A stretch of DNA of 64,000 bases from Lysobacter terrestris. GTDB lineage: Bacteria; Pseudomonadota; Gammaproteobacteria; Xanthomonadales; Xanthomonadaceae. A program made the position numbers and the translations under genes. Under the pieces are notes generated by a model. The model worked only from the letters and a program-made list of their open reading frames with translations, searched no databases and had not been told where the DNA came from. Shown piece by piece: positions 35 to 7,851 of the stretch (the first letter of the stretch is position 1; each line of letters starts with the position of its first letter). The stretch lies in the NCBI RefSeq assembly GCF_014489475.1, contig NZ_CP060820.1, positions 1,240,001-1,304,000 on the forward strand, in the 5' to 3' direction.

Positions 35-973
35 CTAGGATCCCGGCAAAAGGATCAGGGGTGTTTCGGGCTTAGTTATTTGAGGCGACTTCGGACCGCG
101 ATACTGAGCCAGGGTCAGTGTGTTGTATCCATTGCAAAATGTCTCTGCGACGAATGCATGGGCTTGACCATCATCATCCAGCACCATCACTTCCGCCATT
201 CCTAGCGGCCCAGTACGCTGATACCCGCAGTAGCTCTTTATGAGACCGGTGGCATCTTGGGGCGAAAATTTAGAGAAGCGCTGCGCAAAGGCCGGCGACT
301 GAACGATGTGTTCGACATCAGGCGTCCCAGGCTGCGGCCTGTTCGGGTGCGCCCCAATGACAGCAAATGAAGGCTGATCGTCGAACTCGACGCAGCGCCA
401 CAGCGTGCTTGTTATCGTATTCCCGAAGTGGCTCGCAATTTGCCGGACCCTCTGCATGCTCATAGGCGCTGACCTTAGAACAGGCTCGAACTCGGCCTTC
501 GGAAAAAACAAGCGGCCAGTGCCGAAGTTCGCTTCCGCCTCAATTCGGTCGTGGCATCCGGGCGTAAGAGTAATTTTCGTATCGCCGAGCATGTAGGCCG
601 AATGCCAGGGAAGGACGCTATGCAGTATTTCGTGCCCTTCACTCCACCGCTTTTTTGGGTCTGGCAGTGATGCATCGATAAGAATCTGCTTCCTGTCAGG
701 CACAAACAGTGCCTTCAGCTCAAGCTTGCGAACAGCCTCAATGAGCAAAAGTGGTCGCTTGATGACCTGCTTTGCCCCTATTGTTAGCTTGTGAACAACT
801 TCGCTCAGCAGACCCGCATCATCAGCCGCGTAGTAAGCGAGATCTAGGCTCATGAGCGCACGAACGTCTGACAGCTCGACCTTACCGCCGCGATAGTCAA
901 GATCGCGATGTATACGGGCCACTCGATCCTCGATATCACGTGCGGTACGACCATCGAGCAGCAAGTTCTTCAT
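35..973 (-). CDS. ImmA/IrrE family metallopeptidase
   Basis: A 312-residue protein with a zinc-peptidase HExxH motif (H114, E115, H118) followed about 27 residues later by an acidic stretch (E145, E147) that fits the third ligand of the ImmA/IrrE family. Peptidases of this family cleave or inactivate a partner HTH repressor, as in phage ICEBs1 ImmA and Deinococcus IrrE. The start overlaps the stop of the XRE gene by 4 bp (ATGA), so the two are translationally coupled and are a natural peptidase-regulator pair. It is the last gene of the leftward four-gene operon. The family call comes from the motif and the HTH partner; the substrate is inferred. Base composition is AT-richer than the chromosome to the right. 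Confidence 0.85.
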   Translation of the reverse strand: MKNLLLDGRTARDIEDRVARIHRDLDYRGGKVELSDVRALMSLDLAYYAADDAGLLSEVVHKLTIGAKQVIKRPLLLIEAVRKLELKALFVPDRKQILIDASLPDPKKRWSEGHEILHSVLPWHSAYMLGDTKITLTPGCHDRIEAEANFGTGRLFFPKAEFEPVLRSAPMSMQRVRQIASHFGNTITSTLWRCVEFDDQPSFAVIGAHPNRPQPGTPDVEHIVQSPAFAQRFSKFSPQDATGLIKSYCGYQRTGPLGMAEVMVLDDDGQAHAFVAETFCNGYNTLTLAQYRGPKSPQITKPETPLILLPGS

Positions 974-1485
974 CGATCGTCTAATGCCTTATCCGAAAGG
1001 GTAGCAACTAGTGCGCTTATTGCATCGAGCTCTTCTTGCGTTACGGCACCGACATTCTTGGAGCGTGCTGCAAACCTCAACCCTTTATCAGCCGCATAGT
1101 GCGATCGCACTTCCACGTGCTTTGCTAGTTGCTGAAATCTAGTGACCGAGAATCCACAAACATTTGCAACGTTCACTAACGAACGAGGAGAAAGGTCTTG
1201 CCCCTCTAGTGTTTCTATAAGAGAAATCTCAATTTCGTCTATATCAGCCAACTCAGCCAGATCACCTCGTGTCCAGCCTCGCTGCTCGCGCACATACCGA
1301 ACAACTTTTCCAATTTCAGTTGGAACCTCGGCCAAAGCAGCTGGAGTAACGATCCGCGACCTAGCATCCTGCTGAAGAGCCTCCAAAGATGTTCCGCCAG
1401 CGGCAGCCATCGTGTCGTCGGCATGCTTTAGTTTGCGTGCCAACCATTCGCGCATAGTCTCGAAGTTCATATTTTCACCCTTCAT
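970..1485 (-). CDS. XRE-family HTH regulator paired with ImmA/IrrE peptidase
   Basis: A 171-residue protein with a helix-turn-helix in the middle (about residues 57-110, containing RGWTRGDLAELADI). N- and C-terminal extensions of unclear fold flank it. It overlaps the acetyltransferase stop by 4 bp and the peptidase start by 4 bp. The ATG at 1485 is the coupled start; an internal ATG at 1470 has a better ribosome site (AAGGGTGA), so the protein may begin five residues later. By family analogy it is the DNA-binding repressor that the adjacent ImmA/IrrE protein controls, perhaps regulating this operon. The target sites are not known. Confidence 0.75.
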   Translation of the reverse strand: MKGENMNFETMREWLARKLKHADDTMAAAGGTSLEALQQDARSRIVTPAALAEVPTEIGKVVRYVREQRGWTRGDLAELADIDEIEISLIETLEGQDLSPRSLVNVANVCGFSVTRFQQLAKHVEVRSHYAADKGLRFAARSKNVGAVTQEELDAISALVATLSDKALDDR

Positions 1486-2093
1486 CGAAGAAGCGCCTCG
1501 GCGCTCTCCTGAGTCATTTCACAGTATCTGAGGTTCTCCTTATCGATATCGCGATCCAACAAAGTCATTCCAAGTCGCTCATAGAACGCTTCAGCTTGAG
1601 AAAGCGAATGCAATCCCACGCGCCCTTTAAAGCCTAGCTCCTGACTGAGCTCCACTGCCGCACGCATTAAGGTGTGCCCGACACCTCGAAAGCGCGGCCT
1701 ATCAACGATAGCGGGCAAGTTCCAGGGCGCTGTGGCAAGAAACACGACATAGACGAGGGGCTTACCGGCCTGCGCCGGCAGACGCCCGAACTCGCCATCA
1801 GTCTTAAGCAGCATCAATCCTTGCGCATCTCCTTCGCATTCGATGGCCATCGTCGGATACGGAAGGAGATTACGGGCAGCATCCACCTTACGTTGCCAGC
1901 GCCAGTGCAAGTGCTGTGGAGGAGAAAGCTCCTTTCCCTCTGCACGCGCCTGGGCTACCTCCGCGGCAGTAAAGGTTAGCCATCTATCGTCTGCGCGACC
2001 TGCAAATTCCACATCTATCCGATCCAGCAATGTGGCGCGCACAAACTGACCCGCGTGCAAATCCTCAAGGGCGATTTCACGCGCTCTCGTCAC
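1482..2093 (-). CDS. GNAT-family N-acetyltransferase, possible toxin of an RHH-GNAT pair
   Basis: A 203-residue protein. The C-terminal half has the GNAT layout: the acetyl-CoA loop region around RPRFRGVGHTLMRAA and the terminal EAFYERLGM segment. The N-terminal hundred residues are less recognisable and make it longer than the roughly 160-residue TacT/AtaT toxins. It starts within the stop of a ribbon-helix-helix gene (4-bp overlap) and ends within the start of the XRE gene. An RHH gene directly upstream of a GNAT gene is the arrangement of TacAT/AtaRT toxin-antitoxin modules that acetylate aminoacyl-tRNA. That role is an inference from context; a housekeeping or resistance acetyltransferase is the alternative. 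Confidence 0.7.
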   Translation of the reverse strand: MTRAREIALEDLHAGQFVRATLLDRIDVEFAGRADDRWLTFTAAEVAQARAEGKELSPPQHLHWRWQRKVDAARNLLPYPTMAIECEGDAQGLMLLKTDGEFGRLPAQAGKPLVYVVFLATAPWNLPAIVDRPRFRGVGHTLMRAAVELSQELGFKGRVGLHSLSQAEAFYERLGMTLLDRDIDKENLRYCEMTQESAEALLR

Positions 2094-2302
2094 AGGACCA
2101 CTAGCTCCTTCTTTTCCTTCGCCACAGCGTCTTCAAAGAAGAGTTTTTCGCCATCCTGCAGCCGAACGGTAATGACCTGATAGAGACGCAGAGCCTGGCG
2201 AAGGATGGCGGTTTTGCTCATGTCCTTTTCAGTAGAAATCTGCTCCAGGACTTCCATCTCAGCATCTGTGAGATTCAGGGTCATGGTTCGCTTGGTTGCC
2301 AT
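2090..2302 (-). CDS. Ribbon-helix-helix (CopG-like) DNA-binding protein, possible antitoxin
   Basis: A 70-residue protein whose first 45 residues match a ribbon-helix-helix fold: a short beta strand (RTMTLNLTDAE) and two helices ending in SKTAILRQALRLYQ. The acidic-basic tail could wrap a partner. A strong ribosome site (TAGGAGGTGA) lies 4 bases before the ATG, so this first gene of the operon should be well translated, as expected for an antitoxin. Its stop overlaps the GNAT start by 4 bp. It probably represses its own promoter in the 2303-2424 spacer. An RHH regulator unrelated to toxicity is possible. Confidence 0.75.
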   Translation of the reverse strand: MATKRTMTLNLTDAEMEVLEQISTEKDMSKTAILRQALRLYQVITVRLQDGEKLFFEDAVAKEKKELVVL

Positions 2303-2343: not shown

Positions 2344-2371
2344 ATTATGCAAGTTGTTTATGGCTTTACAT
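2344..2371 (-). promoter_or_regulatory. Predicted promoter of the RHH-GNAT-XRE-ImmA operon
   Basis: On the minus strand CATAAT (2349-2344) is a five-of-six match to the sigma70 -10 hexamer. The -35 with a 16-nt spacer (ATGTAA) is weak. The RHH start codon lies about 40 bp downstream. Confidence 0.3.
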
Positions 2372-2392
2372 TAGCTATTTTTTATGTACTAT
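2365..2392 (+). promoter_or_regulatory. Predicted sigma70 promoter of the ubiquitin-like operon
   Basis: TTTACA (2365-2370) and TACTAT (2387-2392) are separated by 16 nt in an AT-rich stretch, giving a start near 2399 and a short leader before the ATG at 2425. It is the only good sigma70 match upstream of the operon. Confidence 0.45.
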
Positions 2393-2424: not shown

Positions 2425-2700
2425 ATGGCCGCCGACCACAGCAACTCGAAGGAACACATCCCCGTTTTTATCGATGAAGTGAAGTTCGAACTCGCCTCGC
2501 GTCACGCGTTAGGGGCGCAGTTGCGCGCGCTCCCAACGCCTCCTCTTGGCCCGGAGCTTGATCTTTGGCTCGAGGTTGCGGGACCTAAAGACGATGAACT
2601 GATCCGGCCCGAGTCCAACTACGAAGTTCGGCCCGGGAGCAAGTTCTACACAGCACCGAGCACCATCAATCCGGGGAGTGGCAGCTATGTCCATTCCTGA
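2425..2700 (+). CDS. Ubiquitin-like beta-grasp protein (multi-ubiquitin family, single domain)
   Basis: A 91-residue protein. Residues 11-84 look like one repeat of the bacterial multi-ubiquitin family: a start like HIPVFIDEVKFEL, the middle helix/loop and the FYTAPSTINPG end. It lacks a terminal Gly-Gly; the NPG at 82-84 is followed by seven residues (SGSYVHS) that would have to be trimmed to expose a conjugatable glycine. The ATG at 2425 is chosen because GGAG lies 7 bases upstream and the domain begins soon after; an in-frame upstream ATG at 2347 falls inside the promoter. It is first of a three-gene operon with E2-like and JAB-E1 genes, and its 3' end overlaps the E2 gene. It is the presumed modifier conjugated by this cassette. 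Confidence 0.8.
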   Translation: MAADHSNSKEHIPVFIDEVKFELASRHALGAQLRALPTPPLGPELDLWLEVAGPKDDELIRPESNYEVRPGSKFYTAPSTINPGSGSYVHS

Positions 2701-3076
2701 TCGCGATACGACGTTCTTGCGTGAGCGGGGTTACGAGTGGGAAGTCGTCCCCGATCCTGCCGGCAGCTCATGCGTCATCGTTCGAGGCTTCGATGTGAGT
2801 GGCGGCGGCTTTACTCCCGCCGCCACCGACCTAATGGTCCGCATCCCCCCGCAATACCCAATGACACCACTGGATATGTGGTACTGCGATCCGCCTATTC
2901 GGCTATCGACAAACGGACAGTTCGCTCAAGCATCGGAGGTCATTGAGAGTCACATCGGCCGCTCTTGGCAGCGTTTTTCACGCCATCTCAATGGCGGCTG
3001 GCGGCCAGGCATCGACAGCCTGCGGTCGTTCTTCGCGCTGATTCAGCGAGAACTTCAAGGAGCCGGGCGCGCATGA
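2687..3076 (+). CDS. E2-fold (Prok-E2_E-like) protein lacking the canonical catalytic cysteine
   Basis: A 129-residue protein with the core order of E2/UBC proteins: a beta-sheet half, a Pro-rich turn (PPQYPMTP, 54-61) and a C-terminal WRPGIDSLRSFF segment (105-116), matching the W-x-P helix that follows the active site in E2s. Only two cysteines exist (C29, C67). The position 8-10 residues before W105, where E2s carry the catalytic Cys, reads QRFSRHL, with S98 and H100. The ATG at 2687 is preferred because GGGGAG lies 9 bases upstream; a GTG at 2678 is possible. It overlaps the ubiquitin-like gene by 14 bp and the JAB-E1 gene by 4 bp (ATGA). It presumably receives the activated modifier. Confidence 0.75.
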   Translation: MSIPDRDTTFLRERGYEWEVVPDPAGSSCVIVRGFDVSGGGFTPAATDLMVRIPPQYPMTPLDMWYCDPPIRLSTNGQFAQASEVIESHIGRSWQRFSRHLNGGWRPGIDSLRSFFALIQRELQGAGRA

Positions 3077-4437
3077 CCGAGAGCGCACGAATCGTCATGC
3101 TCGAAGCCCAGAAGATTGTCTTAGAGAGCTATCTGTTCGATACGCCAGGCCTTGAGGGCGCCGCCTTTCTGATCTGCGGACAAGCAGCGGGCGGTACCCC
3201 GAAGCTCGTCTGTCATGCTGTGATTCCTCTCCAGAGCACGGATTACCTCGAAAGACGGCACGACGGACTCACAATCGGCTCTGGCTCATTGACGCGCATC
3301 GCGAAATTAGCTCGAGAGGAGGGAATGTGCATTGTCTTTGCTCACTCGCACCCCGATGGCATCACCGAGTTCTCGTCCAAAGACGATGAAGAAGAGGCGA
3401 AGCTCTTGCCCTTCTTGCAGGCCCGGGCACCCGGCCGCATTCATGGAACGATGGTGGTAACCAAAACCAGTATGGGAGCTCGGCTGTACGCCCCGAGACG
3501 CATCCCTGCCAGCGTCCTCGTTGTAGGTGACCGCTTCCGTTTATACAGCGCCGAAACCGATGATTGCGTCCCGCAAGTCTATGATCGCCAAGTTCGCGCA
3601 TTCGGAAGGGACACGCAGCAAACGTTATCGGCTCTGCATGTAGGCGTAGTTGGCCTAGGAGGGACCGGCTCGCCAATTGCTGAGCAACTAGTGAGACTAG
3701 GTGTTGGCCGGATCACACTCTTTGACGGCGACAGACTCGAGAGAACAAACGTAAACAGGGTCTATGGATCCAGCCTTTCGCAAACTGGACGCCCCAAGGT
3801 TGAGATCGCAAAGGAGCATCTCGACCGCATAGGACTGGATGCGCATGTCGTCGCGGTAGCCCATCACATCACAGAAGAATCGGCCGCCAAGCGGCTCCGT
3901 GACTGCGACATCATCTTTGGATGCACTGACAAGCAGATTCCGCGTGCGATCCTGATGCAGGTAGCGCTCCGCTACTGCTTGCCAGTGTTTGATCTCGGGG
4001 TCCTAATCGACTCGAAAGATGGCGAGATCCGCAGCATTCATGGCCGCATCACAACTTTGATGCCTGGCGAATCGTGCCTCTACTGCCGAGGCCGAATTTC
4101 GGCTGAAGCTATGCGTATCGAAGCGCTTTCGCCTCAAGAGCGTGAGCAGCAGGCCCGTGAAGGCTACGCTCCTGAGCTCGATACTACCGCGCCAGCTGTG
4201 ATTGCATTTACATCCACTGTTGCCAGTCTTGCAGTTTCCGAACTTCTCAATCGCCTGACAGGATTCATGGGAAGCGATCGAAAGTCCTCAGAAGTTCTTA
4301 TCGCATTCGACCAAAGTCGCATACGAACTAACAGAGTTGCGCCAAGAGATGCATGTCATTGCGCAGATCACGCGCAGTGGTGCATCGGAGATGAGAATCC
4401 ATATCTGGGACTTGCCTGGCCTACTTTGCCCAGCTAA
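3073..4437 (+). CDS. JAB (JAMM) peptidase - E1 (ThiF-like) activating enzyme fusion
   Basis: A 454-residue fusion. Residues 1-165 are a JAB/JAMM peptidase with a complete zinc motif: E28, H91-S-H93, seven residues, S101 and D104. Residues 170-420 are a ThiF/E1 adenylation domain with the nucleotide loop GLGGTGS (194-200), D218, the NVNR motif (226-229) and a structural CxxC (SCLYC) probably paired with the terminal CHC. No cysteine lies in the crossover-loop region after CLYC, where E1s hold the catalytic Cys. The peptidase half could trim the modifier tail or remove conjugates, and the E1 half would adenylate its C-terminus. The ATG overlaps the E2 stop (ATGA). It converges with DUF6527, overlapping it by 17 bp. 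Confidence 0.85.
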   Translation: MTESARIVMLEAQKIVLESYLFDTPGLEGAAFLICGQAAGGTPKLVCHAVIPLQSTDYLERRHDGLTIGSGSLTRIAKLAREEGMCIVFAHSHPDGITEFSSKDDEEEAKLLPFLQARAPGRIHGTMVVTKTSMGARLYAPRRIPASVLVVGDRFRLYSAETDDCVPQVYDRQVRAFGRDTQQTLSALHVGVVGLGGTGSPIAEQLVRLGVGRITLFDGDRLERTNVNRVYGSSLSQTGRPKVEIAKEHLDRIGLDAHVVAVAHHITEESAAKRLRDCDIIFGCTDKQIPRAILMQVALRYCLPVFDLGVLIDSKDGEIRSIHGRITTLMPGESCLYCRGRISAEAMRIEALSPQEREQQAREGYAPELDTTAPAVIAFTSTVASLAVSELLNRLTGFMGSDRKSSEVLIAFDQSRIRTNRVAPRDACHCADHAQWCIGDENPYLGLAWPTLPS

Positions 4438-4768
4438 TCCTTCCCCGGGTCAACCAAAAGTGAGCGCCACAAGTTGTCGCGTTAACAGAAGGAAAGACCG
4501 AAAAGTCGGAAGTGCTACGAACTGAGAGACGCCATGCCGGCCGCTGCGAGGTCATAAGATTCAGCGCGATTTGGCGCTCGCAGCCACAGGGGCACTTGAG
4601 GTAAGCCCATTTCGGTCGCCCCTCAGAAATAAAAACCCCTACCGTTCGATCTGATCTTGCACCAATCTGCGCTTCACTTCGCTCGTTGAAATAGACCAAC
4701 ACGAACGATGACTCCTGCCGTGCTGGCCCCAGCCTCCGCCCTATCCAAGTTTTGAGACGCGTCAACAT
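4421..4768 (-). CDS. DUF6527-family putative zinc-binding protein
   Basis: A 115-residue protein with CPCGC (59-63) and CGAH (100-103), a probable single zinc site, and the DUF6527 pattern of an aromatic before CPCGC, a PSV segment and an aromatic-rich HFWL end. DUF6527 genes are recurrent neighbours of bacterial Ubl/E2/E1 operons, which supports it as the fourth member of this cassette; its role there is not established. Unlike the other three it is on the minus strand: it overlaps the last 17 bp of the E1 gene tail-to-tail and starts 10 bp after the aceE stop, so it could be expressed by read-through from aceE. No strong ribosome site is visible. Confidence 0.7.
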   Translation of the reverse strand: MLTRLKTWIGRRLGPARQESSFVLVYFNERSEAQIGARSDRTVGVFISEGRPKWAYLKCPCGCERQIALNLMTSQRPAWRLSVRSTSDFSVFPSVNATTCGAHFWLTRGRISWAK

Positions 4769-4778
4769 CTAAAGGCAA

Positions 4779-7472
<2,694 letters not shown>

Positions 7473-7851
7473 GGGGGCTCCGCGCGGCCCGCTGGCCGGC
7501 GCTGTGGGGTCGTGGATTAGAGTCGGGATTCTAGCAGCGGGGGGTGGGATGGGGACCCGCAGGGGCATGGGGAAACGTCCCCGGTTCGGCAAAGTGGGGC
7601 GATGGGAACGATTTCAGCGGCCCCAGCGATCGCGACCGGTTTGCGTACCCGCATGCTGGCCGGCGGTGTGGGCCGCGAGCCCGCCTGACGCACCAACCAA
7701 ACTGTGCTTCACGCTGATCGTCGCAGCAGCGGGATGGTGCGTATCGGGTTGCGCTCGCGGGGGTGTGCGCTGGTTCACGCGCGGCTTGGCTGTCTCGTAC
7801 AGGCATTGCGCTAGCATTGCGCTCCCCCGCCCGAGCGAGCCATTTCCCCCG
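7473..7851. other. Intergenic region between aceE and a glycosyltransferase gene
   Basis: A divergent 379-bp spacer that must hold both promoters. I see a small hairpin GGGGA-AACG-TCCCC at 7569-7582 and G-rich runs near aceE, but no convincing -35/-10 pair, repeat or small gene. Confidence 0.5.

Follow-up and report, generated by a model that had tools for sequence, protein, structure and literature searches.

The stretch of DNA analysed here (the window; 64,000 nucleotides of Lysobacter terrestris contig NZ_CP060820.1, positions 1,240,001 to 1,304,000) contains an operon of the bacterial ubiquitination-like (Bub) type and, divergent from it, a cassette of four control genes encoding a ribbon-helix-helix (RHH) protein, a GCN5-related N-acetyltransferase (GNAT), a CapH-like helix-turn-helix (HTH) repressor and a CapP-like metallopeptidase. 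The evidence tends to favour a reading in which this cassette is a portable immunity switch that moves between Bub, bacterial ISG15-like (BIL-like) and type III cyclic-oligonucleotide-based anti-phage signalling (CBASS) operons, carrying an operator of TAGCTA boxes phased at 11 bp and joining a toxin-antitoxin (TA)-like pair to a DNA-damage-sensing protease pair. The best explanation of the locus as a whole, which takes the Bub module and its control by the cassette jointly, is a compact Bub module that was acquired horizontally and has a switch of its own; this is considered likely. The features of the locus, in window coordinates, are as follows.

35-973, minus strand: CapP-like ImmA/IrrE metallopeptidase, 312 amino acids (aa), HExxH intact
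970-1485, minus strand: CapH-like HTH repressor, 171 aa, conserved in the cassette
1482-2093, minus strand: GNAT acetyltransferase, 203 aa, cassette-specific family with an extra N-terminal region
2090-2302, minus strand: CopG-type RHH protein, 70 aa, which probably binds the TAGCTA boxes
2303-2424, no strand: divergent promoter region common to the control cassette and bubA
2361-2388: array of three boxes with an 11-bp period, TGGCTT (2361), TAGCTA (2372) and TATGTA (2383)
2365-2392, plus strand: bubA promoter-like match TTTACA-16-TACTAT, 9/12 matches
2425-2700, plus strand: bubA, ubiquitin-like protein (Ubl)
2687-3076, plus strand: bubB, E2 fold
3073-4437, plus strand: bubCD, JAB-E1 fusion
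4421-4768, minus strand: bubE, DUF6527 protein, convergent with bubCD

Distribution of the control cassette

The cassette genes lie to the left of bubA on the minus strand in the order RHH, GNAT, HTH and peptidase, each overlapping its neighbour by 4 nt. This gene set recurs with its order unchanged at 21 loci, namely the window, G132, G180, G258, G596 and 16 loci on plasmids; at most of them it diverges from a Bub, BIL-like or type III CBASS operon. An earlier note, made from this DNA sequence alone, had spoken of regulatory and toxin-antitoxin-like genes beside the ubiquitin-like ones; the adjacency holds, but the genes form a single cassette of four, which is found beside CBASS and BIL-like operons as well. 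The facing genes are listed below; several of the plasmid Bub neighbours, including the type of their E1 N-terminal domain, were classed from annotated gene names.

Divergent Bub operon with JAB-E1: window, G132, G180, Shinella, Novosphingobium, Methylomagnum, Nitratireductor, Agrobacterium, Thioclava, Roseibium, Rhizobium CIAT894
Divergent Bub operon with DUF6791-E1: G258, G596
Divergent BIL-like operon: Rhizobium WYJ-E13 (BilD 8e-18), Bradyrhizobium barranii (BilD 4e-9, BilC 1e-12)
Divergent type III CBASS operon (cyclase, HORMA, AAA, SAVED-nuclease): Nitrobacter (by profile), Methylocystis and Methylobacterium (both by annotation)
Divergent DUF2188 gene: Gemmobacter, peptidase truncated
Divergent short open reading frame (ORF): Marinibacterium, likeness judged by eye

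The exception is Jiella, in which the cassette is near a Bub operon but not divergent from it, and the peptidase gene looks broken. In a tree of the cassette, the copies linked to CBASS group in a single clade that branches from among those linked to Bub, which is consistent with a change of target. No description of the cassette was found in the open-licence literature searched.

Several of these loci have further features of their own. The Bub operon beside the disrupted cassette of Jiella pelagia (L056) possesses HTH and ImmA genes of its own, separate from those of the cassette. At L070 and L071 a small DUF2188-type gene faces the cassette instead of a large immune operon, and L071 also has a Vsr/MvaI-type restriction gene pair nearby. 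The Methylocystis bryophila plasmid NZ_AP027150 carries the cassette with CBASS (L055) about 9 kb from a Bub operon with a Fic-type RHH gene (L033).

TAGCTA boxes in the divergent promoter

TAGCTA boxes with an 11-bp period are located between the RHH gene and the divergent gene. A pair was defined as two TAGCTA boxes with at most one mismatch in total, and 22 RHH loci were scored. An exact 11-bp pair was present in 18 of them, while spacings of 6-10 and 12-15 bp occurred at no more than one locus; the histogram of box spacings peaks at 11, 22 and 33 bp. Dinucleotide shuffles gave a mean of 0.01 loci with an 11-bp pair (maximum 1), and the pair was found at 16 of 20 loci, compared with 0 of the 12 Bub loci that lack the cassette (Fisher p=1.6e-5), but the loci share descent, so that both the Fisher and the shuffle figures overstate independence. 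Fic-associated Bub loci, with another RHH context and no TAGCTA pair, served as controls.

In most of the intact arrays the boxes are situated between a TTGNNT and a TATA-like hexamer reading towards the immune operon. The promoter-operator composite pattern derived from these loci had no match in 369 genomes of the class, a scan used as a chance control only, and is therefore rare by chance. In the window the array overlaps the sole bubA promoter-like match, and in the 3.15-Mb genome only five places match the double box with two mismatches or fewer, and two of these overlap at this array. A locus of Rhizobium CB3060 (L086) has an RHH gene (5498-5704) divergent from a Bub-type operon, with no GNAT, CapH or CapP gene, and keeps two exact TAGCTA boxes 11 bp apart; the retention of boxes beside an RHH gene alone points to the RHH protein as the binder. 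As far as can be judged from sequence, the RHH protein very probably represses the divergent operon from the phased boxes at the intact loci. Such repression is less likely at the window, where the array has decayed.

Upstream of bubA in three Fic-associated Bub loci (L033, L034, L050), the divergent position is taken by another RHH gene, and TGGTATC-like tandem repeats stand in place of TAGCTA boxes, suggesting that RHH/operator pairs may have been swapped.

Arrays of the TAGCTA palindrome have been published as the operator of RptR (PMC12255303), an all-alpha protein of 79 aa that represses type I restriction islands, so the hexamer is not new as a defence operator. The feature in common is an array of the 6-bp palindrome over defence-island promoters; a TAGCTA array within the regulated promoter is found in the same 18 of 22 RHH loci and, in degenerate form, in the window. 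RptR is encoded by the first gene of its island and is tied to type I restriction, whereas the candidate here is a CopG-type RHH protein with divergent Bub, BIL and CBASS targets. The box period also differs, being 11 bp here, while three RptR repeats span about 28 bp, nearer to 9-10 bp each. The possibility that the RHH protein is a homologue of RptR (PDB 9R2Z) was rejected, as PDB searches returned CopG and a designed protein only. Use of TAGCTA by an RHH cassette, its 11-bp phasing and Bub, BIL or CBASS targets were not found in the open-licence papers searched.

Proteins of the cassette

The peptidase matches PADLOC capP (E=1.4e-13), and its HEILH and EAEAN motifs are present in the aligned homologues; the HTH protein matches PADLOC capH (E=2e-4) and Pfam HTH_31/HTH_3. 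The locus thus has an HTH repressor and an ImmA-type peptidase adjoining an immune operon, the arrangement of CapH+CapP, in which CapP is reported to be activated by single-stranded DNA (ssDNA) and to cleave CapH (PMC13373217; PMC10904395). As far as the work of Lau et al. 2022 is conveyed by PMC13373217, the common features are a repressor and a peptidase beside CBASS or Bub; the peptidase described there is ssDNA-activated, whereas that of the window is known by sequence likeness. Here the pair shares an operon of four genes with RHH and GNAT, its sequence similarity to CapH+CapP is low and the peptidase is longer. The Bub/CapH+CapP account (PMC13373217) makes no mention of a GNAT or other acetyltransferase.

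The RHH profile matches structures of the CopG repressor in the PDB (E=5.5e-6), and the protein has a conserved C-terminal tail. The GNAT protein matches Pfam Acetyltransf_10 (1.2e-6), and Gly137, Gly139 and Tyr171 are invariant. Its AlphaFold model (pLDDT 88) has the toxins GmvT, AtaT and TacT among its nearest folds, with modest query TM-scores of 0.44-0.50. As in the GNAT-RHH TA pairs AtaRT, TacAT and GmvAT, an RHH gene is followed by a GNAT gene in one operon, and the folds are similar; in contrast to them, the cassette GNAT is longer, with an N-terminal addition, and does not form an autonomous two-gene module with RHH, since RHH, CapH-like and CapP-like genes accompany it at 21 of 21 cassette loci. 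It may be a toxin-like partner of the RHH protein or a regulator-modifying enzyme, and the data favour neither.

The Bub operon

The four genes running from bubA to bubE had been described as related to Bub; profile and PDB matches identify them, almost beyond doubt, as a Bub operon, a complete copy of the kind already described. The four ORFs are present as previously claimed, with overlaps of 14 nt (bubA/bubB) and 4 nt (bubB/bubCD) among the first three, and with bubE converging on bubCD and overlapping it by 17 nt.

BubA matches Pfam Multi_ubiq with E=0.011, which is below the cut-off and weak alone, but 10 of 11 aligned relatives match this family (best 5e-17). Its predicted structure (pLDDT 78) is a beta-grasp with bacterial multi-ubiquitin proteins (9cd2, 8u38, 9d59) as top PDB matches, and it also matches Citrobacter BubA in 9ea8, which bears out its proposed identity as a Ubl. 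The protein ends in TAPSTINPG-SGSYVHS; Gly84 is invariant among the relatives and the tail beyond it (SGSYVHS here) is variable, implying a processing step.

BubB belongs to the Prok-E2_E family (2.2e-42) and matches Citrobacter BubB (PDB 9eae, E=8.6e-10). The description of it as E2-like is correct with respect to the fold and family, but the conserved catalytic cysteine of canonical E2 proteins is absent by column conservation among 21 homologues (Cys67 is Cys in 4 of 21, Cys29 in 7 of 21), so that a classical E2 thioester is not expected. BubB retains S98, R99 and H100 within a W-x-R-[WF]-S-R-H motif (WQRFSRH in the window). The sequence features of BubA, BubB and BubCD support a non-classical transfer chemistry, without settling which residue would carry BubA.

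BubCD was claimed to join a complete JAMM peptidase to an E1 domain, and intact motifs confirm this. It matches Pfam ThiF (2e-39) and Prok-JAB (9e-6) and, over residues 5-447, Citrobacter BubCD (PDB 9ea4, 1.4e-48). The JAMM residues E28, H91xH93, S101 and D104 are intact, D104 aligning with Asp104 of the Citrobacter protein, and the E1 domain retains GLGGTG, N226 and R229. The sole universally conserved cysteine of this domain, C284, is inside a GCTD motif that is read as part of the nucleotide site. BubE is a metal-binding-type protein matching Pfam DUF6527 (3.1e-19), and its gene is the single DUF6527 match in the genome. A BubE homologue adjoins BubCD at the loci of relatives examined, where the Ubl, E2, JAB-E1 and DUF6527 genes are co-inherited.

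The prediction of Bub-type systems dates from 2006 and their biochemical description from 2025-26. The Citrobacter system (PDB 9ea4, 9ea5, 9ea8, 9eae, 9eav) likewise comprises a Ubl, a Prok-E2_E protein and a JAB-E1 fusion. However, BubA of the window has one beta-grasp domain and that of Citrobacter several; bubE is convergent in the window, as also in G132, and collinear in Citrobacter; and the control genes differ. A CxxC motif (335, 338) and C428 of BubCD are kept in the window and in most members, but not in the Citrobacter-like branch. The gene arrangement of the window corresponds to operon type 6e of Iyer, Burroughs and Aravind 2006 (PMC1779556). In the portion that describes this type, the common components are a Ubl, a Cys-less E2/RWD-like protein, a JAB-E1 protein and a metal-binding protein; the Ubl there is a polyUbl, mostly with two or three domains and solo in one species, compared with the single domain here. 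That portion treats the E2 as inactive, and the control cassette does not figure in it.

A scan of the genome collection with BubCD gave three distant relatives only, so plasmid records and family genomes were used for comparison. A broad BubCD protein search of the family genomes returned mostly general E1/MoeB/ThiF-like matches, and none of the phage records searched contained a BubCD relative. In the family of the host, Prok-E2_E was found in 9 of 299 genomes and 8 of 54 genera, and BubCD relatives occur on 213 plasmid records; these counts indicate a sporadic, mobile system. More widely, 544 Bub operons have been counted, 219 of them with adjacent CapW or CapH+CapP (PMC13373217).

Some Bub operons contain an extra gene between bubCD and the DUF6527 gene (L036, 6281-7729; L052, 5717-7321; L048, 5747-7336), which in L036 encodes a TCAD9 and phosphotransferase (APH) protein and in L052 an annotated phosphotransferase. 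In Methylocystis (L033) a fifth gene downstream of DUF6527 (6652-7551) matches ClpP-like SDH-type serine proteinases (PF01972), and a gene at a similar position is present in L034, L050 and L035.

Genomic setting

The AT-richer island suggested by the earlier note is real: its G+C content is about 54-59%, compared with about 68% outside, and its right boundary was located at the 3' end of aceE. No tRNA gene was found in the scanned stretches around the insertion site. In one congener the corresponding aceE point is occupied by another AT-rich island (L083, G039:C7, 4233-11218), encoding a Schlafen-group helicase (PADLOC PDC-S41), a D12 adenine methyltransferase and two DndB/DpdB-like proteins, and a second congener has no island there. 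The aceE site looks like a hotspot for defence-type cargo.

Proposed mechanism and alternative explanations

From the observed gene content, homology, linkage of the cassette to several types of immune operon and phased boxes in their promoters, a course of binding, repression, induction and conjugation may be proposed, and any role in defence is likewise a proposal. The divergent cassette would hold bub expression off, with the RHH protein occupying the phased TAGCTA boxes in the bub promoter and blocking RNA polymerase. The CapH-like repressor and CapP-like protease would probably release the system upon DNA damage, as for CapH+CapP; that CapP does so by cleaving CapH is proposed by analogy only. 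The GNAT protein, coupled to RHH in the manner of a toxin-antitoxin pair, would add a second input. By extension from other members of the family, the few residues that follow the conserved Gly of BubA would be cut off by BubE or by the JAB domain. The exposed Gly would be adenylated by the E1 domain of BubCD, and BubB would pass BubA to targets without a conserved E2 cysteine; JAB/BubE could then reverse conjugation.

It is unlikely that RHH-GNAT is an ordinary type II TA pair, with CapH/CapP as an independent regulator and their joint presence being incidental island clutter. The 4-nt RHH/GNAT overlap, the conserved RHH tail and the RHH-paired toxins among the nearest structures of the GNAT model do resemble such pairs. 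However, the order and coupling of the four genes are constant at 21 loci, where the divergent partner is mostly an immune operon; the boxes are within the immune promoter and outside the RHH promoter core; and there was no free-standing RHH-GNAT pair among the plasmid records with this RHH family, the one exception examined being an RHH gene without GNAT. The binding of the boxes by the CapH-like HTH protein or an RptR-type repressor, instead of RHH, is equally improbable. RHH repressors typically use short tandem subsites, the RHH profile matches CopG and not RptR, and the 11-bp period departs from that of RptR. The two exact boxes of L086 persist without CapH/CapP, and three HTH+ImmA-type Bub loci lacking RHH (L037, L038, L051) have no box pairs. 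This alternative draws on the binding of RptR to TAGCTA arrays over the -10 box of defence islands (PMC12255303).

A role of Bub in general stress-response protein tagging, rather than in anti-phage defence, is a more serious possibility, although still the less probable one. The statement that Bub and BIL systems act against phage is true of Bil, for which defence was shown, but for Bub such activity is undemonstrated, and the group that defined Bub has itself considered a global stress role (PMC13373217). The control genes, moreover, resemble a DNA-damage switch. On the other hand, CBASS and BIL-like operons lie opposite copies of this cassette, the corresponding chromosomal site of a congener is occupied by a different defence-type island, and BubCD relatives are plasmid-borne.

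Against the reading of the locus as a Bub module under RHH-based control weigh, besides the shared descent of the loci and the undemonstrated phage protection by Bub, several further points. The window array is degenerate, with one exact box and two with 2-3 mismatches, and G180, L056 and L075 are without a clean 11-bp pair, so repression at these four loci may be weak or changed. The GNAT activity is putative. Finally, the unrelated RptR binds TAGCTA arrays elsewhere, which leaves RHH unproven as the binder (PMC12255303).

Biological significance

The Bub operon of the window is a compact addition to its family, with a single Ubl. The control cassette is the newer part and more important than the Bub operon itself. 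If the proposed reading is true, a single switch design would control three or more kinds of immune operon in bacteria, and the GNAT acetyltransferase would be placed in immune control. Two unrelated repressors, RHH here and RptR elsewhere, would then share a hexamer at defence loci. The operator, being legible from DNA alone, would provide a handle for finding regulated immune loci and a way to ask when Bub turns on.

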